In this document: one piece after another, positions 23,199 through 53,752 of the stretch
Layout: each line of letters begins with the position of its first letter
Position numbering within the stretch: the stretch's first letter is position 1
DNA from: Ereboglobus sp.
GTDB lineage: Bacteria > Verrucomicrobiota > Verrucomicrobiia > Opitutales > Opitutaceae
Reading direction: 5' to 3'
NCBI GenBank assembly: GCA_029974595.1
Contig: JARKRC010000062.1
Coordinates: 62,001 to 126,000, forward strand
Length of the DNA: 64,000 nucleotides
Program-made: the position numbers and the translations under genes
The notes under the pieces: generated by a model
The model's database searches: none
Seen by the model: the letters and a program-made list of their open reading frames with translations, nothing else
What the model was told of the DNA's origin: nothing

Positions 23199-23201
23199 AT
23201 A

Positions 23202-23219
23202 TTATGTCTAATCTTGAAT
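23202..23219 (+). repeat. 18-bp direct repeat, copy 2
   Basis: TTATGTCTAATCTTGAAT, 17 of 18 identical to 21751-21768, lying 3 bp after the point where the malQ fragment ends. Confidence 0.45.
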
Positions 23220-23299
23220 GTAGCAAAACACCCTCCGCCGCCCAATCTCACACCCCTCCCTCGCGAATCTGCCCGGCGGCCAAGTTTGTGCTGCGTATT

Positions 23300-24481
23300 T
23301 TAGCGGGACAGAGTGTCCTTTTTATTGGTCAACCATTCGAGGTTAAAGCGCGCGACGGAAACATATTGGTTGTCGTTTTCATACAAGCAGAGGATGGTGC
23401 CGTCGGGCAGTACGGCGAGGTCGGAGTAGGAACTGGGGCCCGGTTCGATCACCTTTGAGACAGACCAGGTCCTGCATTCATCGTAACTGAGTTTCACCGT
23501 CAGGTTTTCACGAGGGAACCACACGCGGGAGCGGGAAGAGTCGTTCTTTGGATTCGCATGGCTGTCCGGGTTGCAAAAGAGCACGCGGCTTTTGTCCGGT
23601 GTGCCCGAGATGCGCAATACACTGGAGAAGCAAATCGGTGTAAAAAGACCTTTGTGAGCCACCGGATTCGTCCAGTTGGTCGTGCCGTCGGGGCTGAAGG
23701 AAAACAGCATGTTGTGAAGCCCGCTGCGGGTGAAAAAGATCACCCCGCCCGCATCCGCCTCGACGCCCGCAGTTTCGTTCATATTATTGAGCACGGCAGG
23801 CAGGATTTCGCCGCAATGCCAGGTCTTGCCGTGGTCGTCGCTATAGATGGAGGTCGCGACAGAAGGCGAGTGATTGCGCTCGCCGTTCGGGCGTGTTTTG
23901 CCGTAGGCCAGCCAAGTAGGGACGAGCAGCCGGCCGTTTTTTAACTGGACGCCGTGGCCGGGGCCGGTGGCGATCACGTTCCAGTTGATCTCCCGCTTGA
24001 AGGCGCCGAGTTGGGGCGTGATGTCCACCGCTTCCGAAAAGGTTTTTCCGCTGTCGGTGCTTTGCAGGTGCCAGACGCGCTCATAGCCGGTCTGGTGGAT
24101 GAAATGCACCGTCTTCGCCCCCTCGTCCCAGATCAACACGGGGTTGTCCGCGACGCCCTTGCCGCTGCCCGCGAGGATGCGCTCAGGCTCCCAAGTTTTG
24201 CCGCCGTCGGTGCTGCGGCGCATGAGCAAGTGCATGTCGGCCCAGTCCGACACCCGGCTGCGTCCGGCAACCACCGCAATCACGGCATTGTCCGGCAGGG
24301 CCAGAATGCAGGGAATGCGGATGGAGGGGTATCGTTTCGACGCCGTAAAAAGAATCTGCGTCTTGAACAGCGGTTTTTGCGCGGCTGGCTTTGCCTGCAT
24401 GAGCCCCGAAAGCGCCGGGATCGCGATCATGGCGCATGCCAGCAGCCTTGCGATGGGTTTAATATAATGTCTGATGTTCAT
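23300..24481 (-). CDS. Exo-alpha-sialidase (GH33), secreted
   Basis: 393 residues with a signal peptide (LACAMIAIPALSGLMQA). The sialidase start motif appears as PSIRIPCILAL, containing the RIP arginine that holds the sialic-acid carboxylate. Several Asp-box turns follow: STDGGKTW, STDSGKTF, SDDHGKTW and a degenerate SYDECRTW. VIATGPGHGVQLKNGRLLVP is the usual mid-barrel block, and SYSDLAVLPDGTILCLYE holds the region of the catalytic Tyr/Glu. It should release terminal sialic acid from glycoconjugates. It is downstream of the GH36 gene on the same strand. ATG 24481 was chosen because an earlier ATG at 24499 adds a short non-standard leader. Confidence 0.9.
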   Translation of the reverse strand: MNIRHYIKPIARLLACAMIAIPALSGLMQAKPAAQKPLFKTQILFTASKRYPSIRIPCILALPDNAVIAVVAGRSRVSDWADMHLLMRRSTDGGKTWEPERILAGSGKGVADNPVLIWDEGAKTVHFIHQTGYERVWHLQSTDSGKTFSEAVDITPQLGAFKREINWNVIATGPGHGVQLKNGRLLVPTWLAYGKTRPNGERNHSPSVATSIYSDDHGKTWHCGEILPAVLNNMNETAGVEADAGGVIFFTRSGLHNMLFSFSPDGTTNWTNPVAHKGLFTPICFSSVLRISGTPDKSRVLFCNPDSHANPKNDSSRSRVWFPRENLTVKLSYDECRTWSVSKVIEPGPSSYSDLAVLPDGTILCLYENDNQYVSVARFNLEWLTNKKDTLSR

Positions 24482-24664
24482 GATAATATATATGTCCACA
24501 TAGCCAGGGGAACGTGTCCCCTCCCCTCCCCCTCGTTGCTTCAGGGGCGGGGTCGAGGTTGAGCGTGATGGTGTCGCGGCGCGGCAATTGGCAGGGATGA
24601 ATCAATGACAACAGCAAATGTTCATGTTTCATGGCATACAATCTCAGGAGCTCGTTGTGGGACG

Positions 24665-37220: not shown

Positions 37221-40200
37221 TTACCAATTGAAGCGCACCGTGGCGGTGCCGGTGTGCCGCTGGAATTCAGAGCCGAGCTCGAAATCGTAGCCGAATGAAA
37301 CGGCTGAGTTTTCCGTCATCGCGAATCGCAGGCCGAAGCCGATCATGAGGCCGTTGCGGTTGTAGTTGTCCACGCCAGTCGTGAAACTCTGGCCCCCGGT
37401 CGAGAGGAATCGTCCGTTGATTTTCAAGGAGGACTCGCTCAGCGTGGCGCGGTAGCCGAATACCGCGTCGAACATGCCGGGGCGTTTCCAAGGCATCGTG
37501 ATATTCTGGGTGACCTGCATGCCGGCGAATCCTTCCAATGCGTTCGCGTCGAGGTCGGCAATGGAGACGGCGCCGGGACCGGTCTCTTCCTGGTGGCTAT
37601 ATGAGACACGCATATAGTGCAGCGCGACGGACGGCTTGATGCGGCCGTATTTCCAAGCGGCGAGCACCGCGCCGGCCTCGATGCTGCCGCCGAAAGTGGT
37701 GGCGGAGTATTTGCCGACGGCGCAGCCTTCCTGCTCGAAACGCGAGGTGTCGGCATCCATGGAGCCGAACACAAAATCCGCCGCCAGATAAAATTTCTCA
37801 AACTGCGCGGCACCGAAAAGACCGACGAAAGGCTGCGTGCCTTTGTTCTCGGAATTATTGTCGGAGGTGATGCGGTTGCTCAGGCAGCCGGCATAAAGAC
37901 CGAGCAGGAGATTTTCCCCGAGCGCCCTATCATAGCCAACCACGGCGCCATAGGTGTCGCTTGTGTAGCCGGTCTTGCGAGAGTTGCCGTCGTTGTCGGC
38001 ATAGGAGCCGATCAGCTTGAGCCAGCCGCTGGCTCGCGCGGGGCGGGACACGCGGTCAAGTGACATGAGAAATGTTTCGCTGATGCGCGAATAGACAGCG
38101 CCGTTGGTGGCGCTCATTGCGTCGAGGATGGCGGCTATATCCTTGCCGGGATTGGCCGTATAGTTCATCGCGGCGAAACTCACCGTGCCCGCCTCCGGAT
38201 CAACCTTGAAGTAATCTGTGTTTAGACCAAAGGGCGCATTGGGGCCCGGGTCAAAATGGATGGTCTGCCCGGCCGTCAGCGAGTCCGCTTTCAACAGGAG
38301 GTAGTCTCCAGAAATAAAGGTGCCTATGGCGATGGTGGCGCCGTTCTCAAGCGTGGCCGAGGGCACCGCCAGCATGGGATCAGCGAGGCCTCCTTTCCAC
38401 ATGGGGTTGAACACGAGCCTGCCGCCGTTCCTCACGATCAGACCGCCCGCCGGCGTGTTCAATTTGCCGATGCCGAGTTCCCCGCCATTGTTGATCGTGA
38501 CGGCCACCGAACTGCCGCCAAGAGCGCCGGCACTCGAGGCCGTGACCTTGCTTCCGGCGTTGACAACGAATTTTTGCAGCGTGTTGGCCCCGCCAAGGCT
38601 CAGCGTGCTGTTGTTGAATTCAAGCGCGTTGCCGTAGATCAGATTGTCAACCGAGCCCGAGGGGATATCGCGGAATTCGAGTGTGGAGGCGGCGCCGATA
38701 GCGATGCTGCCTGCGCCGAGCGCCCTGGCGTGCCCCGCGACCACGCGCGGAGCCTCTATGTTGAGGCCGCCGCTGAAGGCGCTGTTGGTGCCGGAGAGCG
38801 TGGTGACGCCCTCGCCCCGCACCGTGAGCGCGCCGTTTCCTGCAATTGAGCCGGCGAGCGTGGAGTTGTTGCCTGCCGCCGCCATGATGGCGAGATCATT
38901 GGCGCCGATATTGATGGCGTTGGGAATTCTGAGTCCCGCAGCATCGATCCATAGTGTCCGTTCGTTCACGGCGACCGTGAGCGTGCCGCTGCCGAGGGCG
39001 TTGGACGCGCCGATGCCAAGCGAGCCGGCGCGGTATTCGACACCGCCGGTGTGGCTGCTGGAGCCGCTGAGGGTGAGCCTGCCTGCGCCGTTCTTGACGA
39101 GCCTGCCCGTGCCCGCGATGGAGCCGGCAAACGTGTTGTCGGCGGTGTTGCTGACGGTCAGTGCCGCCGCTCCGAGCGTGATGAGTCCGTTGCCGCAGAT
39201 GTTTCGAACGGTCTGGGCGTTGCCGGCCAAGTCCAGGGTTGCGCCGGATTTTACCTCGACGCCGGCACTGGCGGCCAGGATGCCGATGGCGCCGGTTCGG
39301 AGTGTGCCGCTTGAAACGGTGGTCATGCCGGTGTAATCGTTGCCCGCGTGAGTCAGCACAATGGCGGAGGTGCCGCCGGCTTGAATATCAAGACCGCCCG
39401 AGCCGGTAATTTTGGCCGAGAGGGTTGAGTCGGTAGAGTGAGTGTTGTTGAGGATGAGTTGCCGCCCGTTGAAGACTTCGATGTCCGTCAATCCGTAGCC
39501 CATGTAAACGCCGGCGGATGTGCCGGTGTCCACAATGTTGGCGCGGTAATTATATCCGGCCTTGGCAACGGTGCCCGTGCCTTGGACGATGCCCGCGTAA
39601 GCGGGCACGGGAATGGGCGCCCCGGTGATGTCGGTCAGCTCGATGGTGCCCGCGCCGGTGACGTTTGCGGCGGCAATCAGGCATGCGCCGTCAACGCCGT
39701 TGTCCAAGTCGAGGATATTGGGATTCGGGGGAACGGCGGGGTTGGTCTGCTGGGCGAGGAGGGCGCTGGTATCAACGCCGATTTTGCTCACCCCGGTTCC
39801 CAGGTCGAGTGTATCCACAATAAGGATACCGTCGGGCGAGCCGCCAAGGGTCATGCCAAAGCTCATCAGTCCGCCGTTGAGGGCGAGCCTGCGGATAGAG
39901 ACGTCGCCGGAGACTTTTTGCGCGGCGCCACCGGCATCGAGTCGGAGCACGGCGCCGGGTGTGGAAAGCACGGCGGCGGCATTGGCGTCGAGGGAAAGTT
40001 TTCCTGACTCAAGCGCGACGAGTCCCGAGTAGCCGCCGCCGGATGCCGTGGATGCGAAGGCGAAGACACCCGGAGTCGCGATCGTGAGCGTGCCGGTGCC
40101 GGCGAGTCGGGCCGCACCCAGCGCATTCGCCGACTTGAGGACGACCCGGCCTTCGTTGATGGCGAGGGTACCACTGAAAGTGTTGCTGCCGGAAAGCGCG

Positions 40201-43200
40201 AGCGAGCCCGCGCCGGCCTTGGACAGGTTGCCCGCGCCGGCGATGTTGCCGGCGAGCGTGCCGGAATGGGCGGATGTGTCGAGGGTAAGCGTGCTGGCGG
40301 CGGCTCCGAGATCGATGCCATTGGCGACGGCGAGGCCGTTGTTGAGGAGGGTCACGCGGACAGCGGCAGCCGTCTCATGACCACTTGACCCAGAAAAAAT
40401 TCCCCCTCCAACTACGAGCTTGGCCGGAGCGGCTCCCAGGGCCGCGGCGTGGCCGAGGGCGAGCGCGCCCTCGGAGAGCACGGTGGTGCCGGTGAAGACG
40501 CTGGCGGTGTTGAGCGCGAGTGTGCCGGAGCCGGTTTTATTAAGAATGCCTCCTCCGGAAAGCCGGCCATCGAACGCGGCATTGTTAGCCTGGGTATCGA
40601 GCACGAGGGCGCCGGCAGCGCCGATGTCGAGAGTGTTGGCGAGTGCAAGGTCTGCGGCGGCCATTTGCAGGGTCGCGGTGCCGGTGACATTGATCGCGCC
40701 TGTGCCGGACGCGCCGGCGGCGGCCAGCGCGAGCGTGCCGGCTTTCAGCTCGATGCCTCCTTTGAAGTCGTTGACGCCGGTGTTGGCGAGGGTGAGCCTG
40801 CCCGCGCCGTCCTTGGTGAGTTTTCCCTGCGCCCCGGAGATGACGCTGCCGATGACACTGTTTTTGTCGGTGGTGATGGCGGCGCCGTTGAACGTGTAGC
40901 TGGCGGCGCCGTCCACAATCATGTCGGAAACAGTGATGCGCGTGCCGGCGATGCCGATGGTGTGAGTGGTGCCGGAGGAGGCGGTGAAAGTGACACGGTC
41001 GCCTTCGGCGAAGGTGTTGACGGCGGCCCCGTCGGTCCAGTTGGCGTTGGCATCGTCCCACATGGTGCCGGACACACCCCCGCCGGTCCAGCGCATGGCG
41101 CGCGAGGAGTCGGCGGACCCGGTTACGATGATATCGTTGCCGGAGACGCTGAGTTTCATGATTTGTCGAGGCCCGGCCTGGATGCGCCCTCCAACAGTGA
41201 CGACGGCGTTGGCTGCGAGTGCGGCGCGATCTCCCGCGGCGATGGTGGCGAGGGTGTGAGCGCCAAGCCTGAAGGCGCTTACGTCAACGCCAAAGGAGCC
41301 CGAAAGCGAGGTGAGGTTGGCAACGACGAGCTGGTCAGCGAGGTTTCCATCAAAGAGATCGAAGGCGATTTTGCCACCGTTGATGTCGAGGTTGTTGACG
41401 GTGAGTTGCGAGCGCGCGGAGTCGGCACCGACTTGCAGTAACGACCCCGCGAGAAGACTGACGTTGCCGGTGTATTCGCCGGTGCCGCCGATGGTCGCGC
41501 CCGCGCCCGCCGTGATGCCGCCCCCGAATTTCGCCGTCGCGCCATCGAGCAGGAACGAGCCTTGGCTGGCAAGAATCGACAGCGTGGAAGCCGAGTTGTC
41601 GGCAGTCAGTCGGAGCGTGCCCGCGCCGCTCTTCGTCAGGGTGCCGGTGCCGGCGAGCGCGCCCGCGTGGGTGATGGTTTGTCCGTTGGTGTCAAGGGTG
41701 CCGGCCACCGCGGGGTCGATGTTGATTTGGTTGGTGATGGCCACTGCGCCCGCGCCGGGGGCGGCGCGGAGCGCGGCATCGCCCGTGAAGCGAATGTTGT
41801 CGGCGCCCGCGCCGAGTTGGGCCGCGCTGGCGAACACAAGCGCGCCGCCCGAAAGCTCGATGTCACCGAAGGTGTTGGCGGTGTTGGAGAGCGTCAGGGT
41901 GCCGGCACCGGATTTTTCGAGTTTGCCGGTGGTGCCGGTGAAGCCGGCGCGGGCAGAGGTGGCGCTGACGGTAATGGCACCGCCGTTAAAGGAGTAGTTG
42001 CCCGTGCCCCCGACACTCAACCCCGAGACCGTGACGCCCTCTGTGGCGATGGCAATGTTGCGATTGGAGGCATGGGCGATGTCCACGGCGCTGTCGAAGG
42101 AGACGGCGTCGCCGTCATTGAAATGGGTTTCGGGCGTAGTGCCATTGTCCGTCCAGCTCGCGTTGGTGATGGCGGAGTTGGCCCACGAGGCACCGTCCGA
42201 GCCTGTCCATTTGAGCGCGAGGCTGGCGAGGGAGTTGTTGAGGAAGAGTTCGTGATTGAGGACGGAGAATGTGAGGCTGTTGCGGGCCGAGGGCGCGATG
42301 CCGATGAGCCGATAGGAAAAATTGTCCGCGGCGCCGGTGAGGGAGGAACTGCTGATGAGCTTGTAGGAGTCGGCGGTGCCGAGATTGGTGATGGCGATGA
42401 TGTTGGTGCCGGTGTTGGCAACGAGCTGGTCGGTTATGAGCTGGCTGTAGGTGCCGTCGGCGCCGTTGCTCCCGAAGAGGTCGAAGTTGAGGGTGACGCT
42501 GCCGGAAAGCGTGAGCCGGTTGGAGCCGGTGCGAACGAAGGTGAGTGTTTCCGGGGTCGCGGCGCCGGGGCGTCCGACTTGCAGGGTCGAGCCGGCTTGG
42601 GCGGTGATTGTCATGGCCTCGAATGCGTCCGCTTGGGTGCGCTTGGCCAGCGTGCCGGAACCGCCAAAAGTCGCTCCGCTGGCAACCGTGATAATGCCTC
42701 CAAGGGACGCGGCGGAGTTGCCCAGCAGAAGGCTGCCGGCGTCCACCCGGACGATTCCCCGCCAATAACTGTTGTCGGCGTTGAGCACGAGGGTGCCTGA
42801 TCCGGTCTTTGCGAGCGTACCCGAGGTGTTATTGTTGGCAATGGAGTCAATGTTCTTGTTGGCCTGCGCCGCTTCGCCGATGGTGAGCGTCACGCCTCCG
42901 TCTATGTTCAAATCCAGCATACCCCCTGCGCCATAATAAAAGCCGCCCGCGCGGGCCGCCGGTGTGTAGGGGTTGTTGTTAATTATCCTGTCATCCCATT
43001 CCGTGGATACAGCGGGGGCGGAGCCGGAGGCAATGTTGCCCGAATACACATAATTATTGGTGCCGCCCGCAAGCGTCATGTGAATGGTCATTTTGGCGGT
43101 GATGCCGTGCTGGAGCGCGCCGCCGTTCTGGACCGTCCAGTTGTTTTTGAACACCACGTCGGTGAAATCGAAGACGCCCGGCGTGCCCGAGTTCGAGCCG

Positions 43201-43880
43201 ATCGCGCCGCCGTTTTGAAACGCCCGGTTGTTCTCGAAAACGGCCCGGTTGAGAGCCAGCGTGCCGGTGCCCCTGACGTCAAACGCGCCGCCATAGTTGC
43301 GGACCGAGTAGTTGCCCTTGAAAACCGCGTCGGTAAACGAGGCCAGCCCGGCGTTTACACGGGCGACGCCACCGATGCCCAATTGATAATTGTCTTCGAA
43401 AAGGACATCGGAGAAAGTGGAGACTACCCCGTTTTTGTTGAACATAAACACCCCTCCCACGCCGCTGCCCAAGCTGCCCGCGCTGATTCTGATAAAGTCA
43501 ACCCCCTTGACGTTCAGTACCTGAAGGGCGGTGGCGCCACCGTCGATTTTGATGAGGCCTGCTTGTGAACCGGTGGTATTATCCCTGATGTCGATGAACT
43601 TAATCCGGCCCGCGCTGCCGTCGAGCGTCAACGTGGCCGTCGTGGCAAGAGATGTGCTGGGAAACACCGCGGTGGTGCCGGCCGTGCCCGAGCGCGTGAC
43701 CGTGAGCACCGCGCCGTTTTCCACCTTGATGCTGGATGAACTGATGGTGTCGCCCAGCCCGAGTATGACAGTCGTGCTTGACGTTATGGGACTCGGGATC
43801 GCAACGGCCGCGCCATACGCGGGTGACACGGCGGCTAGCAGAGCGGCCAAGGACAGGCAGTGAAAAAAATTCTTGCTCAT
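37221..43880 (-). CDS. Giant autotransporter, about 2200 residues, with Pmp-like repeats
   Basis: About 2219 residues from ATG 43880 (an in-frame ATG at 43913 would add 11). A signal peptide (CLSLAALLAAVSPAYG) leads into Pmp-like repeats (FEDN, FKGN, FENN, FKNN with GGVA, GGAF, GGAI, GGAL; about 145-290). A very long array of autotransporter-associated beta-strand repeats follows (KTGSGTLALN, KSGAGTLTLSN, KNGAGRLTLSG and similar), each expected to add a turn to a beta-helix. The C-terminal barrel ends VRFNW, and the region before it (PGKDIAAILDAM...VYSRISETFL) is clearly homologous to the smaller neighbour. A surface adhesin or glycan-binding role is an inference. Confidence 0.9.
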   Translation of the reverse strand: MSKNFFHCLSLAALLAAVSPAYGAAVAIPSPITSSTTVILGLGDTISSSSIKVENGAVLTVTRSGTAGTTAVFPSTSLATTATLTLDGSAGRIKFIDIRDNTTGSQAGLIKIDGGATALQVLNVKGVDFIRISAGSLGSGVGGVFMFNKNGVVSTFSDVLFEDNYQLGIGGVARVNAGLASFTDAVFKGNYSVRNYGGAFDVRGTGTLALNRAVFENNRAFQNGGAIGSNSGTPGVFDFTDVVFKNNWTVQNGGALQHGITAKMTIHMTLAGGTNNYVYSGNIASGSAPAVSTEWDDRIINNNPYTPAARAGGFYYGAGGMLDLNIDGGVTLTIGEAAQANKNIDSIANNNTSGTLAKTGSGTLVLNADNSYWRGIVRVDAGSLLLGNSAASLGGIITVASGATFGGSGTLAKRTQADAFEAMTITAQAGSTLQVGRPGAATPETLTFVRTGSNRLTLSGSVTLNFDLFGSNGADGTYSQLITDQLVANTGTNIIAITNLGTADSYKLISSSSLTGAADNFSYRLIGIAPSARNSLTFSVLNHELFLNNSLASLALKWTGSDGASWANSAITNASWTDNGTTPETHFNDGDAVSFDSAVDIAHASNRNIAIATEGVTVSGLSVGGTGNYSFNGGAITVSATSARAGFTGTTGKLEKSGAGTLTLSNTANTFGDIELSGGALVFASAAQLGAGADNIRFTGDAALRAAPGAGAVAITNQINIDPAVAGTLDTNGQTITHAGALAGTGTLTKSGAGTLRLTADNSASTLSILASQGSFLLDGATAKFGGGITAGAGATIGGTGEYTGNVSLLAGSLLQVGADSARSQLTVNNLDINGGKIAFDLFDGNLADQLVVANLTSLSGSFGVDVSAFRLGAHTLATIAAGDRAALAANAVVTVGGRIQAGPRQIMKLSVSGNDIIVTGSADSSRAMRWTGGGVSGTMWDDANANWTDGAAVNTFAEGDRVTFTASSGTTHTIGIAGTRITVSDMIVDGAASYTFNGAAITTDKNSVIGSVISGAQGKLTKDGAGRLTLANTGVNDFKGGIELKAGTLALAAAGASGTGAINVTGTATLQMAAADLALANTLDIGAAGALVLDTQANNAAFDGRLSGGGILNKTGSGTLALNTASVFTGTTVLSEGALALGHAAALGAAPAKLVVGGGIFSGSSGHETAAAVRVTLLNNGLAVANGIDLGAAASTLTLDTSAHSGTLAGNIAGAGNLSKAGAGSLALSGSNTFSGTLAINEGRVVLKSANALGAARLAGTGTLTIATPGVFAFASTASGGGYSGLVALESGKLSLDANAAAVLSTPGAVLRLDAGGAAQKVSGDVSIRRLALNGGLMSFGMTLGGSPDGILIVDTLDLGTGVSKIGVDTSALLAQQTNPAVPPNPNILDLDNGVDGACLIAAANVTGAGTIELTDITGAPIPVPAYAGIVQGTGTVAKAGYNYRANIVDTGTSAGVYMGYGLTDIEVFNGRQLILNNTHSTDSTLSAKITGSGGLDIQAGGTSAIVLTHAGNDYTGMTTVSSGTLRTGAIGILAASAGVEVKSGATLDLAGNAQTVRNICGNGLITLGAAALTVSNTADNTFAGSIAGTGRLVKNGAGRLTLSGSSSHTGGVEYRAGSLGIGASNALGSGTLTVAVNERTLWIDAAGLRIPNAINIGANDLAIMAAAGNNSTLAGSIAGNGALTVRGEGVTTLSGTNSAFSGGLNIEAPRVVAGHARALGAGSIAIGAASTLEFRDIPSGSVDNLIYGNALEFNNSTLSLGGANTLQKFVVNAGSKVTASSAGALGGSSVAVTINNGGELGIGKLNTPAGGLIVRNGGRLVFNPMWKGGLADPMLAVPSATLENGATIAIGTFISGDYLLLKADSLTAGQTIHFDPGPNAPFGLNTDYFKVDPEAGTVSFAAMNYTANPGKDIAAILDAMSATNGAVYSRISETFLMSLDRVSRPARASGWLKLIGSYADNDGNSRKTGYTSDTYGAVVGYDRALGENLLLGLYAGCLSNRITSDNNSENKGTQPFVGLFGAAQFEKFYLAADFVFGSMDADTSRFEQEGCAVGKYSATTFGGSIEAGAVLAAWKYGRIKPSVALHYMRVSYSHQEETGPGAVSIADLDANALEGFAGMQVTQNITMPWKRPGMFDAVFGYRATLSESSLKINGRFLSTGGQSFTTGVDNYNRNGLMIGFGLRFAMTENSAVSFGYDFELGSEFQRHTGTATVRFNW

Positions 43881-44128
43881 GCAAGGTTGGCGGAGAGGGT
43901 TGCAAGGTTTCATGTTAAAATGGATGAGATCCGGGATTGTTTCTTGATAGCCGTTATAGATGCAGGCCGGTATTCATGATATTATTTATAATCAAGCAGC
44001 CGGCGTTGGAAAGTGACTGCGCGCGCCTCCTCGTCGAAGACCAGCATATCCGGCAGTGACGTGGCAAAAAAGTGAAACCAATTTGGACTTGGCTGCTAAC
44101 AAAGCAGGAAAGGGTAAAACTAAAAACA

Positions 44129-44166: not shown

Positions 44167-44203
44167 CCTTTCAAGAGGTTCACTCAACGAACCTCTTGAA
44201 AGG
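44167..44203 (-). terminator. Strong hairpin with U-tract on the minus-strand side
   Basis: A perfect 15-bp stem (44167-44181 with 44189-44203) and a 7-nt loop. Read leftward it is followed by AGTTTTTCTTCT, as in an intrinsic terminator for leftward transcription. No intact leftward gene ends here, so it may belong to a lost gene or insulate the giant autotransporter gene from read-through. Confidence 0.55.
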
Positions 44204-44464: not shown

Positions 44465-44755
44465 TCATCAATTTCATGTGCAGCGCCTTTATACACAAAG
44501 TTGCTGGAGCATATCGGGGCAGGCGAAATGTCCGAGGTCCGAAAATTGCAAGAGAAAGCCATCCAGATGATGGCGACTTGCAGCGATATGGGGGTTACGC
44601 ACTTTGCCAGCTCGAAATCCGTCATGGCAATGCCTGGTGTGGATTGCGGCCCAGCCATGCCTCCGCTACGCAATATAGCGCCGGAACAATTTGATGAGCT
44701 CCGTCAACAGCTGGGAAAAGAAGATTTCTTCAGCAACGCATGCAGCCTTTTGTAG
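44465..44755 (+). pseudogene. C-terminal remnant of an N-acetylneuraminate lyase (NanA/DapA family)
   Basis: The frame ending at the TAG 44753-44755 reads APLYTKLLEHIGAGEMSEVRKLQEKAIQ and then MPGVDCGPAMPPLRNIAPEQF. This matches the end of sialic acid aldolases of the DapA fold, which close with an LQ-x-K-A-I helix and a GxDCGPxRPPL turn. Only about 95 of roughly 300 residues remain. The frame is closed upstream by a stop at 44456 and there is no proper start or ribosome-binding site. It is read here as decayed rather than a functional small gene. Its position between sialidase-related loci fits a former sialic-acid catabolic gene. Confidence 0.7.
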
Positions 44756-44775
44756 TATATTGATTTTAATATACT
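44754..44775. promoter_or_regulatory. 22-bp palindrome upstream of the GntR-type gene, candidate operator
   Basis: AGTATATT-GATTTT-AATATACT: perfect 8-bp arms separated by 6 bp, about 215 bp before the regulator start. It could be an autoregulatory site or simply part of an A/T-rich promoter. Confidence 0.4.
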
Positions 44776-44989
44776 TGCAATTAACTGCTGAAGTTCGTGA
44801 ATGTCGCCCCATGCGACTCTGCTTGCGTTCCAATTTGAAATTGTTGGTGCAAAAAACATGTGCCTTCCCAGATGATTTTCGGACTTGTACTCACATGGAA
44901 GAGTCCAAGGCCAGATTCAGGGAAAATTTTATCAAGACCAAATCCATGTTTGTTTGATCATCACCATGAAATCGTGTTTTTTTCTCGAT

Positions 44990-46099
44990 ATGTCTTCCAA
45001 CAGCACTTCTTGGAATCTACCTCAACGTCAGTTATTGAGCAAACAAACGGCCGATTTATTGCGAGAGCGGATCGTGGATGGGACATGGCAGGAAAGTTTA
45101 CCACCAGAGAGAGAGCTCTGCGCGTCCCTGCAAGTCAGCCGGCATACATTGCGAGTTGCATTGAAACAACTTTCCGCGGAAAGGCTTATAGAATCCAAGC
45201 AAGGAAAGGGGATTATGATCCTAAGCCGTTCCCAACGTAAAAAGAAGATGTTGGATCTCACGGATGTCGGGTTGCTTTTGCCTGGTTCGATTACTCGAAT
45301 GTTGCCGATCCATGTTGTATGGATGAATCATTTGCGTGCAATGCTGGCTGATCGTGGATGCCGGTTGCATTTATTTTACGGTCTTAAATATGCGCGCCAC
45401 AATCCTTCAGTAGCCATCAATCAACTTGTAACGCGGCAAAAACACAAATGCTGGGTCTTGTTGTTGTCGGACGAACCGGTGCAGCGCTGGTTTCAGGACA
45501 ACAAGGTGCCGTGCGTCGTGGCGGGTTCGATCTACAAGGACATGAGCCTGCCGTATTGCGACCTCGAACATCGCGCGGCGTGCCGGCATGCTGCGGGGTT
45601 GCTGCTCGGGCGCGGACACCGGCGCATCGCCCTGCTCGTGCAGAAATCGCGACTGGCTGGCGAAGAAGAGAGCGAGGCGGGATTTGCCGAGGGCATGAGC
45701 CGCTCGCCGCACAAGGACACGGAGATGCTTGTTTGCAACCTTGACGGCACCGCGGCCGGAGTCGCCACCGTGGTAAGGCGACTCATGGCGCGCAAGCCCG
45801 CGCCGACGGCGCTACTGATGGTGAACGCGTTTTACTATCTCACCGCGACCGCCTGTCTTGCACGGCTGGGGTTGCGTGTGCCCGAGGATGTCTCGGTGGT
45901 TTTGTGCGACGGGGCCAACTTCCTTCCCTGGCTGCTGCCTGTGCCGACGCATTACGAAATCGATCCGCACAATTTTGCGAAGGCGTTGTTATCTATGGTG
46001 CTTGAGATGTTGGAGAGCGGCGCGACCAGAAAAAGGGCGGTGCAACTCATGCCCGCCTGTATCGCGGGCGAGTCGGTGGCGGATGCGCGGAAACCGTGA
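44990..46099 (+). CDS. GntR-type HTH / LacI-type sensor transcriptional regulator
   Basis: 369 residues. The N-terminal winged helix is of GntR type: QTADLLRERIVDGTWQESLPPERELCASLQVSRHTLRVALKQL, followed by a wing ESKQGKGIMI. Residues about 95-365 form a LacI/periplasmic-binding-protein-like sensor (VGLLLPGSITRMLP, HAAGLLLGRGHRRIALL, PTALLMVNAFYYL, RVPEDVSVVLCDG). This GntR-LacI chimera type typically responds to sugars. It lies immediately upstream of the activase and GRE genes on the same strand and is the likely local regulator. The ATG at 44990 was chosen; one at 44966 is in frame. Confidence 0.88.
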   Translation: MSSNSTSWNLPQRQLLSKQTADLLRERIVDGTWQESLPPERELCASLQVSRHTLRVALKQLSAERLIESKQGKGIMILSRSQRKKKMLDLTDVGLLLPGSITRMLPIHVVWMNHLRAMLADRGCRLHLFYGLKYARHNPSVAINQLVTRQKHKCWVLLLSDEPVQRWFQDNKVPCVVAGSIYKDMSLPYCDLEHRAACRHAAGLLLGRGHRRIALLVQKSRLAGEEESEAGFAEGMSRSPHKDTEMLVCNLDGTAAGVATVVRRLMARKPAPTALLMVNAFYYLTATACLARLGLRVPEDVSVVLCDGANFLPWLLPVPTHYEIDPHNFAKALLSMVLEMLESGATRKRAVQLMPACIAGESVADARKP

Positions 46100-46197
46100 T
46101 GCGTCGCGCATAAATGGTCTGCTGGGTGAACCAAGAGTTTGCATTGGCCGCATCGAGGAATGTATGCGATGGTCTGTGCCGTGTCCGCACACCATTC

Positions 46198-46209
46198 GGA
46201 TGGCCATCC
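46198..46209. promoter_or_regulatory. 12-bp perfect palindrome upstream of the activase gene
   Basis: GGATGGCCATCC lies 35 bp before the activase start, in the only spacer (144 bp) between the regulator and the GRE operon. Position and symmetry suit an operator, but the word is short enough to be chance. Confidence 0.3.
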
Positions 46210-46243
46210 ATTCAGTTGAAGAACCCAGCATCCCATTATTCCC

Positions 46244-47230
46244 ATGATTCACGGGATCGTAACCGACATTCAGCGGTTTTCCCTGCACGACGGGCCGGGA
46301 ATTCGGACGACCGTGTTTTTGAAGGGCTGCCTGATGCGCTGCGAATGGTGCCACAATCCCGAGACGATCGACCCGGCGCCGCAGTTGTTGTTTTACGCGG
46401 GCAACTGCATCGGCTGCGGCGAATGTGTCGAAGCCTGTCCGCAAGGAAATCACCGGTTCGGCAGCGCAGATGAGACTGTTGTCGCGGCGGGCGCGGCACG
46501 CGCGATAACGCATGATTTCTCACGCGGATCGTGTTCCGTTTGCGGCGCGTGCGCGAGACGCTGCCCGGCGTCCGGCCTGCAAGTTGTGGGACGCCGCATG
46601 GAGATCGCGGACGTGATGGCGGAGCTATTGGAGGATCGCGCGTTTTACCACGAGGAAGGCGGCGTGACGCTTTCGGGGGGCGAACCGATGATGCAGCCGG
46701 AATTTGCGCGTGGGATTCTCCGCGCCTGCAAACGCGAGGGCATCCACACCGCGATCGAGACGACACTCTGTTACCCGTGGTCGCGCATCGAACCGCTGCT
46801 CGGCGAACTCGATCTGATCATGTTCGACCTGAAACTGGCGGATGCGGAAAAACACCGTCGCCATACCGGCGCGTCGAACCGTCTGCTGTGGGAGAATCTC
46901 GGGCGACTCAACCGGTGTGGCAAACCGCTTATCGCGCGCACGCCGCTGATCGCGGGCATCAACGACAGCGAGGATGAAATCGTTCCCATCGCCCGCGCGC
47001 TCGGACGGCTCGACAACCTTTTGTATTACGAATTCCTGCCCTATCACCCGCTTGGCTCGGGCAAATACGAGGCTCTCGGACGCGCCGCGCCGGTGTTTCA
47101 ACCGCCATCGGGCCAGACCCTGCGCCGGCTCGCGAATGCGGCCCGCGCTCAAGCGGATAATATAAAAATATATATCAACGGAAAACCGGAAAATTATGAA
47201 ATACAGCACACAACTGGCTCGCTTGCGTGA
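46244..47230 (+). CDS. Glycyl-radical enzyme activase (radical SAM)
   Basis: 328 residues. The radical-SAM cluster motif CxxxCxxC is at Cys29, Cys33 and Cys36 (GCLMRCEWCHNPE). Two ferredoxin-type 4Fe-4S motifs follow in the insert typical of non-PFL activases: CIGCGECVEACP and CSVCGACARRCP. GGVTLSGGEPMMQ is the SAM-binding GGE motif. It abstracts hydrogen from the partner's glycine to install the radical under anaerobic conditions. Its 3' end overlaps the GRE start by 35 bp, so the partner is almost certainly the next gene. Confidence 0.94.
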   Translation: MIHGIVTDIQRFSLHDGPGIRTTVFLKGCLMRCEWCHNPETIDPAPQLLFYAGNCIGCGECVEACPQGNHRFGSADETVVAAGAARAITHDFSRGSCSVCGACARRCPASGLQVVGRRMEIADVMAELLEDRAFYHEEGGVTLSGGEPMMQPEFARGILRACKREGIHTAIETTLCYPWSRIEPLLGELDLIMFDLKLADAEKHRRHTGASNRLLWENLGRLNRCGKPLIARTPLIAGINDSEDEIVPIARALGRLDNLLYYEFLPYHPLGSGKYEALGRAAPVFQPPSGQTLRRLANAARAQADNIKIYINGKPENYEIQHTTGSLA

Positions 47231-49364
47231 GCGGAAACTGGCGCAGACCCGCGCAAAACTCGACCGCAAGGGCGCGCAGGACGAGGATGACTACGGCTAT
47301 GTATTGCCGCCGCCGGATTTTTCATGGCAGCCGCCGGGGGCGGACCGTGGCGACACATTCCAGGGCGCGCGCGCCTGGGCCTCGGTGTTTCGCTCATTGA
47401 TGGAGCATCATCCGGTTTATATAGATGCGGACGACGCGCTGGCCGGACGATGGATGTTCATGCTCTCGCGCATGCGTCCGCAATACCGGCTCGACCGCGC
47501 GCCTTTCCCGTTTGACTACTCGCACATGGAGGACGAGCAGCGGTTGTATGACATCACCTCGGGCATCGGCGCCGACGCGCATTTCGCGCCCGACTATCGC
47601 ATCGGCCTGCAACTCGGCTGGGACGGGCTCAAGCAAAAGGTGCGCGCCTCGCTTGAAAAACACGCGGGCGACACCGAGGCCGTCGAGTTGCTGGAGGCCG
47701 AGATCGATGTCATTGAGGGTGTGCAAAACTGGATCGAACGCACCGCCGCCGCCGGCGAGGCCATGGCGCGAACGGAAAACGATCCCCTGCGCAGGGAAAA
47801 TCTCGAAGTCATGGCGGCGATCAACCGGCGCCTCGTCGGGCAGCCGCCTTCGACCCTGCGAGAGGTGTGCCAGTGGCTGGCTTGGTTCAACATGGCCTCG
47901 CGCACCTACAACCGCGATGGCGCGGGCGGGCAGCTCGACGAGCTGCTGCGACCGTATTACGAGCACGATCTGGCCGAGGGCATGATCGACGACGAGGACG
48001 CCATGTATTACATCGCGTGCCTGCTGCTCAACGATCCGCATTATTATCAAATCGGCGGCCCCGACAAGACCGGGCGCGACCAGACGACGGCGATCTCGCA
48101 TTTGATACTGGAGGCCGCGCATCTGCTCAAGATAAGCTGCAACATCACCATCCGCGTCCACGACGGCCTGGATGAAAAACTGTTCTGGCGCGGAATTGAT
48201 ATATTGTTTTCAGACGAACTCGGCTACCCGCGCTTCTCCGGGGACAAGGCGCTTGTCGCCGGGTTTATGCGAAACGGTTATGACGCCGAGCTGGCGCGCG
48301 AACGCATCGCAGTCGGCTGCAACTGGATGAGCCTGCCCGGGCGCGAATACACCATGAACGACGTGGTAAAGATCAATATCGCCAAGGTCTTCGAGGTGGC
48401 GTTCCGAGAAATGCTGGAAAAGGACGCATCACCATCGACGGAGAAGCTGTTTGCGTTGTTCACGACTCATCTAAGGCGTGCGATTCACTGCACGGCGCGG
48501 GGAATAGATTTCCATCTGGAGCATCAATACAAAAACGAGCCGGAGCTTCTCTTGAACCTGCTTTGTCACGGTCCGGTTGAGCGCGGTCGTGACGCGTCAC
48601 ATGGCGGCGTGGATTTTTATAATATGTGCATCGACGGGGCAGGACTCGCCACCGTGGCGGACTCGTTTGCCGCGCTGGAACAGCGTGTGGAGCAGGAAGG
48701 CCGCCTCGACTGGCAGACCGTCGCCCGCGCGATGGCAGAAAACTTTGAGGGTACCGACGGCGAAAAGACGCGCCTGATCCTTTCCGGCTCGCAGCGTTTT
48801 GGCCGCGGCTTGTCGCTCGGCGACAAATGGGCCGCGCGCCTTACGGAGCTGTTTACCACCAGCGTGAAGGCCTCGCCGACACCTGCGGGACATAACCTCA
48901 TGCCGGGCTGGTTTTCGTGGGCCGACACCGTCCGTTTTGGCAAAACTGTCGGCGCGACACCCAATGGGCGTCGCGCGGGCGCGCCGATCTCGCACGGCGC
49001 GAATCCGCATCCCGGCTTCCGCAAGGACGGCGCGCTGACCGCCATCGTGAAGGCCGTCGCGGACGTGCAGCCGGGTTACGGCAACACCGCGCCGCTGCAA
49101 CTGGAGGTCGATCCGTGTTCCAGCCGGTCGCCGGATGCGAAGGCCATCGTGGGCAATCTGATCAAGACGCACTTCGCGCTCGGCGGCACATTGATTAATA
49201 TCAACATCATCGACGCCGAAAAAATCCGCGACGCGCACAAGCATCCCGAGAAATACCCGGATCTTGTGGTGCGCGTGACCGGCTTCACCGCCTACTTCGC
49301 GAGCCTCTCGCAAGAATTCCGCCAGCTCGTGGTGGATAGAATCATACAGGAACAAGTCGCTTGA
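47196..49364 (+). CDS. Glycyl radical enzyme of unknown substrate (PFL-like family)
   Basis: 722 residues, short for the family (usually about 760-850). The glycyl-radical loop is VVRVTGFTAYF with Gly696 near the C-terminus. The active-site cysteine is Cys375 in RIAVGCNWMSLPGRE, followed by the expected NIAKVFEVAF helix. In eliminases such as CutC, glycerol dehydratase and HPAD this motif reads GCVE and the Glu is the base; here that position is Trp. Pyruvate formate-lyase instead has a double Cys, also absent. The reaction is therefore not predictable. A purine-rich CGGAAAA precedes the ATG. It is translationally overlapped with its activase and lies 29 bp before a sialidase gene. Confidence 0.88.
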   Translation: MKYSTQLARLRERKLAQTRAKLDRKGAQDEDDYGYVLPPPDFSWQPPGADRGDTFQGARAWASVFRSLMEHHPVYIDADDALAGRWMFMLSRMRPQYRLDRAPFPFDYSHMEDEQRLYDITSGIGADAHFAPDYRIGLQLGWDGLKQKVRASLEKHAGDTEAVELLEAEIDVIEGVQNWIERTAAAGEAMARTENDPLRRENLEVMAAINRRLVGQPPSTLREVCQWLAWFNMASRTYNRDGAGGQLDELLRPYYEHDLAEGMIDDEDAMYYIACLLLNDPHYYQIGGPDKTGRDQTTAISHLILEAAHLLKISCNITIRVHDGLDEKLFWRGIDILFSDELGYPRFSGDKALVAGFMRNGYDAELARERIAVGCNWMSLPGREYTMNDVVKINIAKVFEVAFREMLEKDASPSTEKLFALFTTHLRRAIHCTARGIDFHLEHQYKNEPELLLNLLCHGPVERGRDASHGGVDFYNMCIDGAGLATVADSFAALEQRVEQEGRLDWQTVARAMAENFEGTDGEKTRLILSGSQRFGRGLSLGDKWAARLTELFTTSVKASPTPAGHNLMPGWFSWADTVRFGKTVGATPNGRRAGAPISHGANPHPGFRKDGALTAIVKAVADVQPGYGNTAPLQLEVDPCSSRSPDAKAIVGNLIKTHFALGGTLININIIDAEKIRDAHKHPEKYPDLVVRVTGFTAYFASLSQEFRQLVVDRIIQEQVA

Positions 49365-49393
49365 TGGACATGACATGAGAAAATAAATGCCGT

Positions 49394-51874
49394 ATGAAAA
49401 GGTTTACTCTCCGCTTCGCTGCTGCCTTTCTGTCGCTTGTCACTTGCTTGCATGCTTTCAAGTCAGATGTGTTTGTAAGCGGTCAGGAGGGATACCATAC
49501 ATATCGGATACCAGCTATTATCAGAGCTGCCGATGGCACCCTGCTTGCGTTTTGCGAGGGACGAAAAAACAGCCGCTCCGATACCGGCAACATTGATTTG
49601 CTGCTCAAGCGCTCCACTGATGAAGGGCGGACGTGGGGCGCAACCATCGTAGTGTGGAATGATGGGGACAACACTTGCGGCAATCCGAGTCCGGTTCTTG
49701 ATGTGACAACAGGTTATATCTGGCTTTTGATGAGCCATAATCTTGGATCGGATACGCAAGATATGATTTCGAACGGGACATCCACTGGCACACGCACTGT
49801 CTGGGTGACCCATTCGAACGACAACGGCCTGACTTGGGCGCCGGCCACGAACATCACCAGTCAGGTGAAAAATCCCAGCTGGCGGTGGTATGCCACGGGC
49901 CCTGGAATAAGCATACAGATCCAAAACGGGCCTCATGCAGGGCGCCTGGTCGTTCCTGTTTGCTATGGCAATCCCCGTTCGTCGGGTGTGTTTTATTCCG
50001 ATGATCATGGGCAAAGCTGGATTACCAGCAATGATGTGCGCGGGCTGGTCGGCGAAACACAGGTGGTGGAAACTTTCGGAGCGCCGGGAAAATTGCTGAT
50101 AAACATGCGGAGCGGCTATGATCACAAATGCCGCACACAATCCACCAGCACAAATGGCGGCGTGACTTGGAGTTCACCGCCAAGCCAGGTAATTGAGCAG
50201 ACCGACCCACCCTGCCAGGCCAGCATTATAAGATGGGAGAATCCTGCCTTGGCGACAGGCGGATTATTGTTGTTCTCCAATCCTGCAAGCGGGACTGACA
50301 GACGTGAGAAGCTCACCATACGGAGCAGCGCCGACGACGGCGCAACGTGGCCGCGATCCCTCGTGCTCCATGAGGGAATGGCAGCCTATTCGTGTTTGAT
50401 CCGCTTGGATGCGGAAACGGCGGGCTGCCTGTATGAAACCGGCGAGGGAACCTATTCCTCGGCCAATCTCTATAAACGGATTACATTCCAGACTTTTCCC
50501 CTGGGTGAACTCGGTGCGTATGCGCCCGCGGATCTCCTTTCGCCCCGCAATGTCACGGCGGGCTCTGGAGGAAGCACCAGCTTTGCGGCCGCGGCATCCG
50601 GAGCCACCAGTTTCCGCTGGCAGGTTTCCACCGATGGCGGCACAAACTGGACGAACATTTCCGCGCTCGCCAATCCCTCCGCCCATTATAGCGGCTGGAA
50701 TAGCGCAACGCTCACAGTCACCAATGCGTCCGGAACCATGAATGGTTATCTGTATCGTTATGTGGCCATCAATTCTTATGGCGAGACGGTGGGTAACAGC
50801 GCGGTTCTTACCGTTAAGACAACAAATCTGGGGCGGGCCGCTGGCATCACGCTGGATAATAGCGACAATATCTATGTCACCGATTCCGGGTATGGCGCAG
50901 TTCGAAAGATCACACCCGCCGGAATCATCTCTTTTTTCAGCAATACAAACGCCTTTGCCATGCCCTCCGGCATAAAAATCAACCCGCTTACCGGTGCGCT
51001 CCATGTCATCGAAACCGGGGCCAGGGCGGTGCGCACGCTTTCGGCCTCGGGAAGTGCGAACGTCCTGCCCGGTTCTGCTGCCGCCTCGCTCGGTGGGCCT
51101 ACGGCTGTTGCTGTTGATAAAACCGGCAACACCTACATTGCCGACACCGCCAGCCATACCGTCCGCATCATCACAGCCGATGGGAATGCCACTATCATCG
51201 CAGGCGCGCCCGGGATTCCTGGATCCACAGACGCCACGGGCACCGCCGCTCGTTTTATCCAGCCCGCCGGTGTTTCCGTTGATATTACAACAACAGGAAC
51301 CTCGGGATATCTTTATGTGGCCGATACCGGCAATCATACCATCCGGATCATCGATATGGGCACCCGCAAGGTGACAACTTTTGCCGGCCAGTCGGGTATT
51401 GCGGGTTATGCAAGCACAATACCGGCGCTCTTTAATGCGCCGAAGGGGATCATCGTCGATGGCGCAGGCGTCGTGTATGTGGCCGATAGCGGAAACCACG
51501 TTATTCGGGAGATTACAAGCCAGACGGATCCCATGCCAGCCATTGCCGGCAGCCCCGAAATCGCGGGTTTTATTGATGATTCCGGAACATATTCCCGTTT
51601 TAACCGCCCCTCCGATCTTGCGCTTGGCCGTGATGGCAGTCTCTACGTGGTCGATCATGACAATAATGTCATTCGCAAGCTCGCGTTCGATGGACGGGTG
51701 TCCACTATCAATACCGTGCTTGATGCCGGCATCCCCGGGGGCAACGGTTCATCAGGAGGCGGAGGCAATGCCGGCTCATCATCAGGAGGCGGAGGCGCTG
51801 CAAGCGCATGGTTTATGGTTGCACTGGGTGTTTTATTCCTTTTGCGCGGCTCAATCATGTGGAAGAAGATGTAA
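49394..51874 (+). CDS. Sialidase (GH33) fused to Ig-like and NHL-repeat domains, C-terminally anchored
   Basis: 826 residues. A signal peptide (AAAFLSLVTCLHA) leads into a sialidase at about 24-370: the YRIPAII arginine motif, EGRKNSRSDTGNIDLLLKRS with the Asp region, Asp-boxes STDEGRTW, SDDHGQSW, STNGGVTW and SADDGATW, and RWYATGPGISIQ. An Ig-like linker (about 378-475) follows, then NHL/beta-propeller repeats (about 477-780; IYVTDSGYGAVRKI, YIADTASHTVRII, YVADTGNHTIRII, YVADSGNHVIREI, YVVDHDNNVIRKL). The end is a Gly/Ser-rich tract, one hydrophobic helix and a basic WKKM tail, as in cell-surface sorting tags. It probably works on the surface releasing sialic acid. Co-directional with the GRE gene, 29 bp apart. 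Confidence 0.92.
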   Translation: MKRFTLRFAAAFLSLVTCLHAFKSDVFVSGQEGYHTYRIPAIIRAADGTLLAFCEGRKNSRSDTGNIDLLLKRSTDEGRTWGATIVVWNDGDNTCGNPSPVLDVTTGYIWLLMSHNLGSDTQDMISNGTSTGTRTVWVTHSNDNGLTWAPATNITSQVKNPSWRWYATGPGISIQIQNGPHAGRLVVPVCYGNPRSSGVFYSDDHGQSWITSNDVRGLVGETQVVETFGAPGKLLINMRSGYDHKCRTQSTSTNGGVTWSSPPSQVIEQTDPPCQASIIRWENPALATGGLLLFSNPASGTDRREKLTIRSSADDGATWPRSLVLHEGMAAYSCLIRLDAETAGCLYETGEGTYSSANLYKRITFQTFPLGELGAYAPADLLSPRNVTAGSGGSTSFAAAASGATSFRWQVSTDGGTNWTNISALANPSAHYSGWNSATLTVTNASGTMNGYLYRYVAINSYGETVGNSAVLTVKTTNLGRAAGITLDNSDNIYVTDSGYGAVRKITPAGIISFFSNTNAFAMPSGIKINPLTGALHVIETGARAVRTLSASGSANVLPGSAAASLGGPTAVAVDKTGNTYIADTASHTVRIITADGNATIIAGAPGIPGSTDATGTAARFIQPAGVSVDITTTGTSGYLYVADTGNHTIRIIDMGTRKVTTFAGQSGIAGYASTIPALFNAPKGIIVDGAGVVYVADSGNHVIREITSQTDPMPAIAGSPEIAGFIDDSGTYSRFNRPSDLALGRDGSLYVVDHDNNVIRKLAFDGRVSTINTVLDAGIPGGNGSSGGGGNAGSSSGGGGAASAWFMVALGVLFLLRGSIMWKKM

Positions 51875-52093: not shown

Positions 52094-53752
52094 ATGTCTT
52101 CCGCCACCGCCTCGCCCATTCCTGCCAATCCGGCCATTCCCGGTCCCGACACCTGTGCAGGCGTGCCGTTGTTCAACTGGCTCACGGAACGCGCCTCCGG
52201 TGTTCTCATGCATCCGACTTCGCTGCCAGGCGCGCAAGGCATTGGCGTCCTCAATGCCACCGCCATCGACGCATGGCTCGCGTTTCTCAAGGACGCCGGC
52301 ATCCGCTACTGGCAGGTCTGCCCGCTCGGCCCGACCGGCTACGGCGACTCGCCCTATCAATGTTTTTCCGCTTTCGCAGGCAACCCCTACCTGATCGACC
52401 TTCAGGCGCTCCAATCCCACGGCCTCCTCACCAACGCCGATCTCGCCCCGCTTGCCGCGCTCCCGCAGGACCATCTGGACTTCGGCTGGCTCTACGTCGC
52501 CAAGTGGAAAATCCTCCACCAGGCTTATGAAAACTTCTGCGGCAACACCACCGATGCCGCGACTTCTGCCGGCGCGCAAAAAGCCCACGCCGCGCGTCTC
52601 GGCTACGGCGATTATGACGCTTTTCTCAAAAAACACGCCGACTGGCTGCAAGCTTTCGCCCTTTTCCAAGCCCTCAAGGATCACCACAACCCGCTCCCGT
52701 GGTGGAGCTGGCCCGCCGAAGTCCGTTTCTATTCAAAAGCCGCCGCCCTCGCGCGCAAAAACGCCCTTCCCCCCGACGTTCTCGCCCGCGCCAAGGCGCA
52801 CGCCTTTTTCCAATACCTCTTTTTCGGCCAATGGACGCAAACGCGTGCCAAAGCCGCCCGCGCCGGCGTCGAAATCATCGGCGACGCTCCCATCTTCGTC
52901 GCCCGCGACAGCGCCGATGTCTGGGCCAATCCCGGGCTTTTCCAGCTCGACGAAACCACCGGGGCGCCGCTCTTCGTTGCCGGCGTTCCCCCCGACTATT
53001 TTTCCGCCGACGGACAACTCTGGGGCAATCCGCTCTACGCCTGGGAGAAACACGCCGCCACCGGTTACGCTTGGTGGATCCGGCGCCTCGCCGTTAACTT
53101 CGAGCTCTGCGACATTCTCCGCCTCGACCACTTCCGCGGTTTCGACACCTACTGGTCGATTCCTGCCGACGCCCAAACCGCGAAAAAAGGCATCTGGAAA
53201 CAAGGCCCCGGCCTCGCCTTCTTCGAAAAAGTCCGCTCCGCCCTTCCCCATGCCAAAATCATTGCCGAAGACCTCGGCGAACTGATGCCCTCCGTGATCT
53301 CCCTTCGCAACGCGACGGGACTTCCCGGCATGGCCATCCTCCAATTCGCCTTTGGCGGCAAAGCCGACAACCTCTACCTCCCGCACAATCACCACCACAA
53401 CAGCGTCGTTTACCCCGGCACTCACGACAACGACACCACGCTCGGTTGGTATCGCTCCTCCGGAAACGAAGCCGCAGCCGACCACGTGCGCCGCTACTTT
53501 CGCATCAGCGGCAACGAAATCGGCTGGGATTTTGTGCGCGCCGCCTATGCCAGTGTTTGCAACCTCGCCGTCATCCCGCTGCAAGATCTCATGAGCCTCG
53601 GCGCCGAAGCCCGCTTCAACACTCCGGGCGTCGCCGCCGGCAACTGGCAATGGCGCTATACCGCGCAACAACTCGAAACACTCCGCAGCGAGAGCGCCGC
53701 CTACCTGAAATCCATCGGCGAACTTTACGGACGCTGCGGTTTGGAAAAATAA
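52094..53752 (+). CDS. malQ: 4-alpha-glucanotransferase (GH77)
   Basis: 552 residues. Strong GH77 marks: SGVLMHPTSLPG at the start, LRLDHFRGFDTYW with the nucleophile Asp, EDLGELMPSV with the acid/base Glu, and GTHDNDTTLGW with the third catalytic Asp. The enzyme rearranges maltodextrins or glycogen branches in the cytoplasm. It starts 219 bp after the sialidase gene and is preceded by a pyrimidine-rich leader (CTTCACTCTTCCC) instead of a Shine-Dalgarno site. A related, broken copy exists at 22991. Confidence 0.95.
   Translation: MSSATASPIPANPAIPGPDTCAGVPLFNWLTERASGVLMHPTSLPGAQGIGVLNATAIDAWLAFLKDAGIRYWQVCPLGPTGYGDSPYQCFSAFAGNPYLIDLQALQSHGLLTNADLAPLAALPQDHLDFGWLYVAKWKILHQAYENFCGNTTDAATSAGAQKAHAARLGYGDYDAFLKKHADWLQAFALFQALKDHHNPLPWWSWPAEVRFYSKAAALARKNALPPDVLARAKAHAFFQYLFFGQWTQTRAKAARAGVEIIGDAPIFVARDSADVWANPGLFQLDETTGAPLFVAGVPPDYFSADGQLWGNPLYAWEKHAATGYAWWIRRLAVNFELCDILRLDHFRGFDTYWSIPADAQTAKKGIWKQGPGLAFFEKVRSALPHAKIIAEDLGELMPSVISLRNATGLPGMAILQFAFGGKADNLYLPHNHHHNSVVYPGTHDNDTTLGWYRSSGNEAAADHVRRYFRISGNEIGWDFVRAAYASVCNLAVIPLQDLMSLGAEARFNTPGVAAGNWQWRYTAQQLETLRSESAAYLKSIGELYGRCGLEK

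Follow-up and report, generated by a model that had tools for sequence, protein, structure and literature searches.

We report that a 64,000-nucleotide stretch of Ereboglobus sp. (contig JARKRC010000062.1, positions 62,001–126,000; here called the window) encodes a glycyl radical enzyme (GRE) which, judged on its sequence, belongs to an uncharacterised and separate clade. The catalytic glutamate of the GRE eliminases, two residues after the thiyl cysteine (CXE), is replaced in this clade by tryptophan (CXW). The enzyme and the activase encoded beside it probably form a working anaerobic pair, with the CXW clade acting in the catabolism of a hexose-type sugar or a sugar-derived polyol under a sugar-responsive regulator. 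A mannose-type sugar would be our leading guess for the substrate.

Assignment of the predicted protein to the GRE superfamily follows from a C-terminal glycyl radical domain (PF01228, E = 5e-14), a predicted thiyl cysteine on the Cys loop and the neighbouring activase gene. Fold, thiyl cysteine and glycyl loop are held in common with the GRE eliminases (glycerol/propanediol dehydratase, CutC, HypD, IslA, PflD and YbiW). An AlphaFold2 model adopts the GRE fold (predicted local distance difference test score 84.3, predicted template modelling score 0.88) and matches GREs in the PDB over most of its length. Structure comparison singles out no relative, with Z-scores running from 30.8 to 29.1 across the first 26 entries; PflD aligns with Z 30.8 and a root-mean-square deviation of 3.5 over 662 residues, and the eliminases among the first 25 entries are 16–23% identical to the window GRE. 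PflB shares the fold and the Cys and Gly radical residues but has paired cysteines (CC) and a Cys loop of another kind, and phmmer aligns its C-terminal part only.

The residues C375, W377, E384 and D389 are present at all 34 GRE loci assembled here, and H129 and G696 at each of the 32 that cover those positions. Aligned with Escherichia coli PflD, YbiW and PflB, the clade has a Cys loop of the form GC[NHQ]W-x3-PG (PflD and YbiW have GCxE here) and lacks about 18 residues after GRE residue 279. PflD and YbiW have a histidine in line with His129, and PflD an aspartate in line with Asp389. With tryptophan at 34 of 34 loci, the clade departs from the CXE signature that defines the eliminases, while still being a GRE.

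Phylogeny agrees with the motif. Of the 47 sequences in the tree, the 27 that carry Trp at C+2 group together (local support 1.0); Trp is absent from that position in the remaining 20. Characterised enzymes in the tree number only three (E. coli PflD, YbiW and PflB); one of the 20 (L012) is a wrong-frame open reading frame (ORF) on a long branch, where the midpoint root fell. Five fragments or duplicates were excluded, four of them showing CXW (L023, L025, L032 and L039) and one, L034, being too short. Two of the 27 (L033 and L038) are a distant sister lineage, 24–27% identical to the window GRE; their Cys loop, GCQWYC, is likewise CXW. At L025/L061 (G218:C18) a clade GRE gene carries one in-frame TGA and the activase match falls in two pieces, either a decaying copy or a sequencing error.

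All 12 NCBIfam models that matched the GRE did so below cut-off (best 280 bits, against 678). Membership in the named GRE families (CutC, HypD, sulfopropanediol dehydratases, decarboxylases, PFL and PFL2-3) was rejected, every score lying below cut-off. An earlier, sequence-only reading of the window had called the GRE uncharacterised, and this description holds: no named family was reached, and the enzyme sits in its own group with the eliminase glutamate replaced. Among the titles listed in searches of an open-access library we recognised no paper on the CXW clade; the clade could match an unnamed cluster in the 2017 HypD network.

The 34 loci comprise the window, three contigs of metagenome-assembled genomes (GREs 89, 86 and 81% identical to that of the window), 28 loci from the window's phylum (Verrucomicrobiota, as judged from named relatives) and two Bacteroidota plasmids. 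Matches of at least 700 bits to the GRE family profile occur in 21 of 387 genomes of the phylum, and 14 of 137 genomes in the order of one carrier match at E ≤ 1e-120. Other phyla were sampled through plasmid records, 137 of which carry a GRE match; among the best 10 of these 137, two lie near 52% identity and the rest below 27%. The two, from Flammeovirga kamogawensis and Persicobacter psychrovividus, are 52% identical to the window GRE and 71% to each other. We take the carriers to be termite-type gut relatives and marine bacteria, with habitats partly from record titles.

Flanks were examined for up to 10 kb per side where sequence extends, some being short. Neighbours were counted by tblastn within 10 kb, because the gene caller had missed genes (the window sialidase and several activases), and families were assigned by scans of selected members. 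An activase is found in the flanks of 27 of the 34 loci. Dehydrogenases of the Gfo/Idh/MocA type occur at 16, and the flanks of the 30 phylum loci that lie in searched genomes hold 30 Gfo/Idh-like stretches where 3.2 would be expected from the PF01408 density of the same 28 genomes. More telling than these counts is the tight gene order: a Gfo/Idh gene directly follows the GRE in L049–L053, L055 and L084, and a gene fusing a xylose-isomerase-like (XI-like) domain to a Gfo/Idh domain (XI-Gfo) sits immediately ahead of the activase in L057, L061, L063, L085 and L086. Cupin-like genes follow the GRE within 51 bp at nine loci and lie upstream at one. Eight loci encode a bicupin-like protein, no more than 51 bp after the GRE stop in seven; the bicupin assignment draws on a sub-cut-off Cupin_2 match in L067 and a His/Glu pattern, the L059 protein having no Pfam match and nothing below E 0.1 in a profile search of the PDB. 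The 136–139 aa proteins of L096 and L097 are read as cupins from sequence pattern alone, with no Pfam match at E ≤ 0.01.

Further recurrent neighbours are XI-like proteins (7/34), a flavin adenine dinucleotide (FAD)-oxidoreductase-like protein (6/34), a LacI-type regulator (6/34) and a GntR-type regulator (4/34 by probe). Regulators resembling the window's, with a GntR part and a LacI-type sensor, are also found in L059, L060, L067 and L083. Sodium:solute symporters (SSF) occur at three loci and MFS transporters at two. Glycoside hydrolases (GHs) of mannoside-active type recur: GH130 in L002, L060, L096 and L097; GH47 in L096 and L097; GH38 in L004 and L049; and GH2 in L004 and, on the other strand, L062. 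Phosphomannose-isomerase-like (PMI-like) proteins are encoded at three loci and an acylglucosamine-2-epimerase-like (AGE-like) protein at one. At least one such mannoside- or mannose-type gene occurs at 11 of the 34 loci, and it is because of these neighbours that a mannose-type substrate would be our first guess. On the F. kamogawensis and P. psychrovividus plasmids, SusC/D, GH130, GH47 and SSF genes surround the GRE and its activase, and a gene for a small cupin-like protein comes immediately behind the GRE. Taken alone in the window's phylum, the GH130 association is weak (2 observed against 0.24 expected, P 0.03; 84 background matches used, against 83 summed in the genome table).

Several observations weigh against this picture. 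The window itself had no Gfo/Idh, cupin, XI or mannosidase gene by probes within 10 kb, just regulator, activase and sialidase, and its sugar context is therefore borrowed from relatives. Seven of the 34 loci show no activase in their flanks; some of these flanks are short, although in L066 and L083 several kb are available to either side. We settled on the mannose theme once the data were in view, with a background computed for GH130 only, and the Poisson figure for Gfo/Idh is overstated, the loci being related and some stretches perhaps pieces of one gene (L088). A fatty-acid-desaturase/Rieske/FAD fusion, an oxygen-type enzyme, directly follows the oxygen-sensitive CXW GRE in L067 (11184–13490) and misfits a simple anaerobic sugar operon. 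Distribution within the window's genus is patchy, with the GRE in two of the four genomes searched (G000, that of the window, and G002) and not in G001 or G003. This patchiness, and the near-equal scores of PflD and CutC in a single-sequence search (given below), led us to trim our confidence slightly.

The genes at 44885–51874 (+) run regulator, activase, GRE and sialidase-like ORF on the same strand (Table 1). The activase and GRE ORFs overlap by 35 bp, and 29 bp separate the GRE stop from the sialidase-like ORF; this spacing makes co-transcription plausible, and the arrangement described in the sequence-only reading is present in all its parts. The activase scores 320 bits against TIGR02494 (cut-off 174), its CX3CX2C motif begins at residue 29, and it would be the enzyme that activates this GRE. 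The regulator may truly start at an internal ATG near 44966 or 44990. Terminator-like sites in the region number 15, compared with 9.5 (standard deviation 3.4) in shuffled sequence.

Table 1 Features of the GRE locus, in window coordinates
Feature	Position	Strand	Support
DHDPS/N-acetylneuraminate-lyase-family aldolase, putative 3′ remnant, 84 aa	44501–44755	+	Weak PF00701 C-terminal match
Regulator, GntR-type helix-turn-helix and LacI-type sugar sensor	44885–46099	+	PF00392, PF13377 (Peripla_BP_3)
GRE activase, radical S-adenosylmethionine protein with ferredoxin-like insert	46244–47230	+	TIGR02494, Fer4-type matches
GRE, CXW clade, 722 aa	47196–49364	+	PF02901 and PF01228 (Gly_radical)
Cys375-Asn376-Trp377 codons, CXW replacing CXE	48318–48326	+	C375 and W377 in 34/34 loci
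Codon of expected glycyl-radical residue Gly696	49281–49283	+	Gly in 32/32 loci covering the site
GH33-like sialidase, NHL repeats, apparent signal peptide, C-terminal hydrophobic stretch	49394–51874	+	BNR_2, NHL

The ORF downstream of the GRE makes a convincing sialidase on sequence comparison. Its top match in the PDB is the entry Hz136 (E = 2.5e-48), followed by a named sialidase (E = 1.3e-46); 76 PDB sequences match at E ≤ 0.001, and the best 60 of these 76 are mostly named sialidase or neuraminidase. Like GH33 sialidases, it carries YRIP and three Asp boxes, and we take the YRIP arginine and the boxes to be the propeller motifs of the fold; it differs from them by its NHL repeats and is not conserved beside the GRE. 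Upstream of the regulator, the remnant aligns weakly to PF00701 positions 217–286 of 289 (E = 0.016) and shares 28% identity across 74 residues with an uninterrupted family member of the same genus (E = 1.6e-8, the database being small). It is 23–28% identical to two uninterrupted DHDPS-family members in the genus, and many stops interrupt all three plus-strand frames upstream of it. We read it as a decayed aldolase of the DHDPS/N-acetylneuraminate-lyase family, apparently too short for activity. The sequence-only reading had called it a decayed sialic acid aldolase; the decay and the family stand, the sialic acid identity was not established. The 84-aa remnant has no NCBIfam match at E ≤ 0.001.

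From this arrangement it had been proposed that the GRE transforms sialic acid, N-acetylmannosamine or another sialidase-released compound, perhaps replacing a lost aldolase route. The 29-bp spacing on a shared strand and the quality of the sialidase speak for such a link, as do two genes at other loci: one, NanA-like, lies 6.5 kb before the GRE in L049 (192 bits, cut-off 281), and the other, the AGE-like gene, immediately precedes the GRE in L083 (328 bits, cut-off 600). Both score below their NCBIfam cut-offs. Comparison of neighbourhoods takes most of the force from it. By tblastn of the flanks, a sialidase lies near the GRE at one of the 34 loci, the window alone, and the NanA-like and AGE-like genes also occur once each. 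No sialidase was found by tblastn in the 8 kb downstream of the GRE in L002, whose GRE is 89% identical to the window's, and none in the 268 bp and 1,285 bp downstream in L003 and L004. The window's genome (G000, 4.07 Mb) contains at least 40 BNR_2 matches, and across the pooled flanks (30 phylum loci, 347 kb) one sialidase-type gene, the window's own, was seen against 0.87 expected; this comparison sets tblastn with two window sialidases against a hidden Markov model background, such that divergent BNR_2 genes near other GREs could be missed. Uninterrupted DHDPS-family genes adjoin sialidases on contigs C59 and C36 of the same genome, and the remnant shows no close similarity to the NanA-like gene of L049. 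With these possible sialic acid aldolases remaining, there would be no lost route in need of replacement. We regard the proposal as very improbable: the tie between the GRE and sugar genes in general is borne out by the family's carbohydrate neighbours, the conserved tie to sialidase is not. The window sialidase looks to be a lineage-specific neighbour in a sialidase-rich organism, outside any conserved unit; amid at least 40 sialidase-type matches adjacency says little, and a lone gene pair should not be read as a pathway.

The main rival to the reading we favour is that the enzyme is a displaced-base dehydratase like PflD or YbiW, opening a 1,5-anhydrohexitol or similar cyclic sugar; Glu384 or Asp389 would then stand in for the CXE glutamate. 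Both YbiW and PflD reportedly cleave 1,5-anhydroglucitol- and 1,5-anhydromannitol-6-phosphate (PMC12441222), which gives these enzymes a sugar-type substrate. PflD is also the top match of a four-sequence profile in the PDB (226.6 bits, then CutC at 220.1), but a single-sequence search puts the two level (187.1 and 187.0 bits); likewise PflD comes first by structure, tied with many, and the Z-scores fail to separate it from other eliminases. Among the neighbours, DgpA and glucose-fructose oxidoreductase are the best matches of one Gfo/Idh protein, and the fused XI-Gfo protein has 1,5-anhydrofructose reductase as its third match. Against this, PflD and YbiW retain both CXE and the loop absent from the clade, and PflD sits with phosphotransferase system genes in E. 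coli, of which the neighbours scanned with Pfam (a selection) had none. On balance we think this explanation unlikely, if less so than an inositol-like cyclitol substrate, for which we see very little chance. For a cyclitol we would cast the Gfo/Idh partner as IolG-like, the XI-like one as IolE/I-like and the cupin-like one as IolB-like, and there is some encouragement in the iolG models, which rank among the best NCBIfam matches of the Gfo/Idh proteins though no score reaches its cut-off, in the XI-Gfo fusion and bicupin-like neighbours, and in the SSF and Sugar_tr transporters. The Gfo/Idh family is broad, however, the bicupin-like protein has no Pfam match to the KduI/IolB family, and mannoside-active GH families are what recur near the GRE.

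On the favoured reading, in which a hexose-type sugar or a polyol derived from one is broken down, we infer an activity, a substrate class and an order of steps from the observed family, motif, clade and neighbours. Exo-glycosidases or transporters would supply the sugar. The activase would generate a glycyl radical on Gly696; the radical would pass to Cys375, and the resulting thiyl radical would abstract hydrogen from the sugar substrate. The rearrangement or cleavage that follows would proceed without the CXE glutamate, and because C+2 has changed from Glu to Trp at all loci examined and some 18 residues of loop are missing, these later steps should differ from those of CXE eliminases. Acid/base catalysis or substrate binding may fall to the conserved Glu384, Asp389 and His129, and the Gfo/Idh dehydrogenases, XI-like and cupin-like proteins may act before or after the GRE. 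Rather more tentatively, the clade could perform a radical reaction undescribed for GREs on a glycan-released hexose or keto-hexose (mannose-type likeliest), dispensing with the CXE glutamate; we hold this more specific proposal as a possibility, with more doubt than belief.

Other features of the window and its genome were noted as well. Between the regulator and a 2230-aa ORF (37221–43913, minus strand) that looks autotransporter-like by eye and is divergent from the GRE genes, there is an inverted repeat of 17 pairs (44167–44203) whose tail, on the minus strand, is T-rich. The window holds a second sialidase-type gene with a BNR_2 match (23300–24499, minus strand), near a GH36 α-galactosidase gene, an aldose-epimerase-like gene and a choloylglycine-hydrolase-family gene (21846–22895). 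Adjoining it is what appears by eye to be an N-terminal malQ fragment (22907–23458, plus strand), and a full-length malQ-like ORF, also recognised by eye, follows the first sialidase (52094–53752, plus strand); the two malQ regions share 150 bp at 79%. Elsewhere in G000, several BNR_2 matches are interspersed with DHDPS-family genes at C36:55610–65396.

GREs perform chemistry that is hard for other enzymes; pathways for choline, hydroxyproline and isethionate came to light as new clades were solved. A clade that lacks the catalytic glutamate but keeps the radical machinery, and that occurs in apparent sugar operons, is a target in the search for a new anaerobic sugar reaction. Should the more tentative proposal of an undescribed radical reaction hold, the CXW enzymes would give anaerobes of the Verrucomicrobiota and Bacteroidota a sugar pathway that has gone unrecognised.

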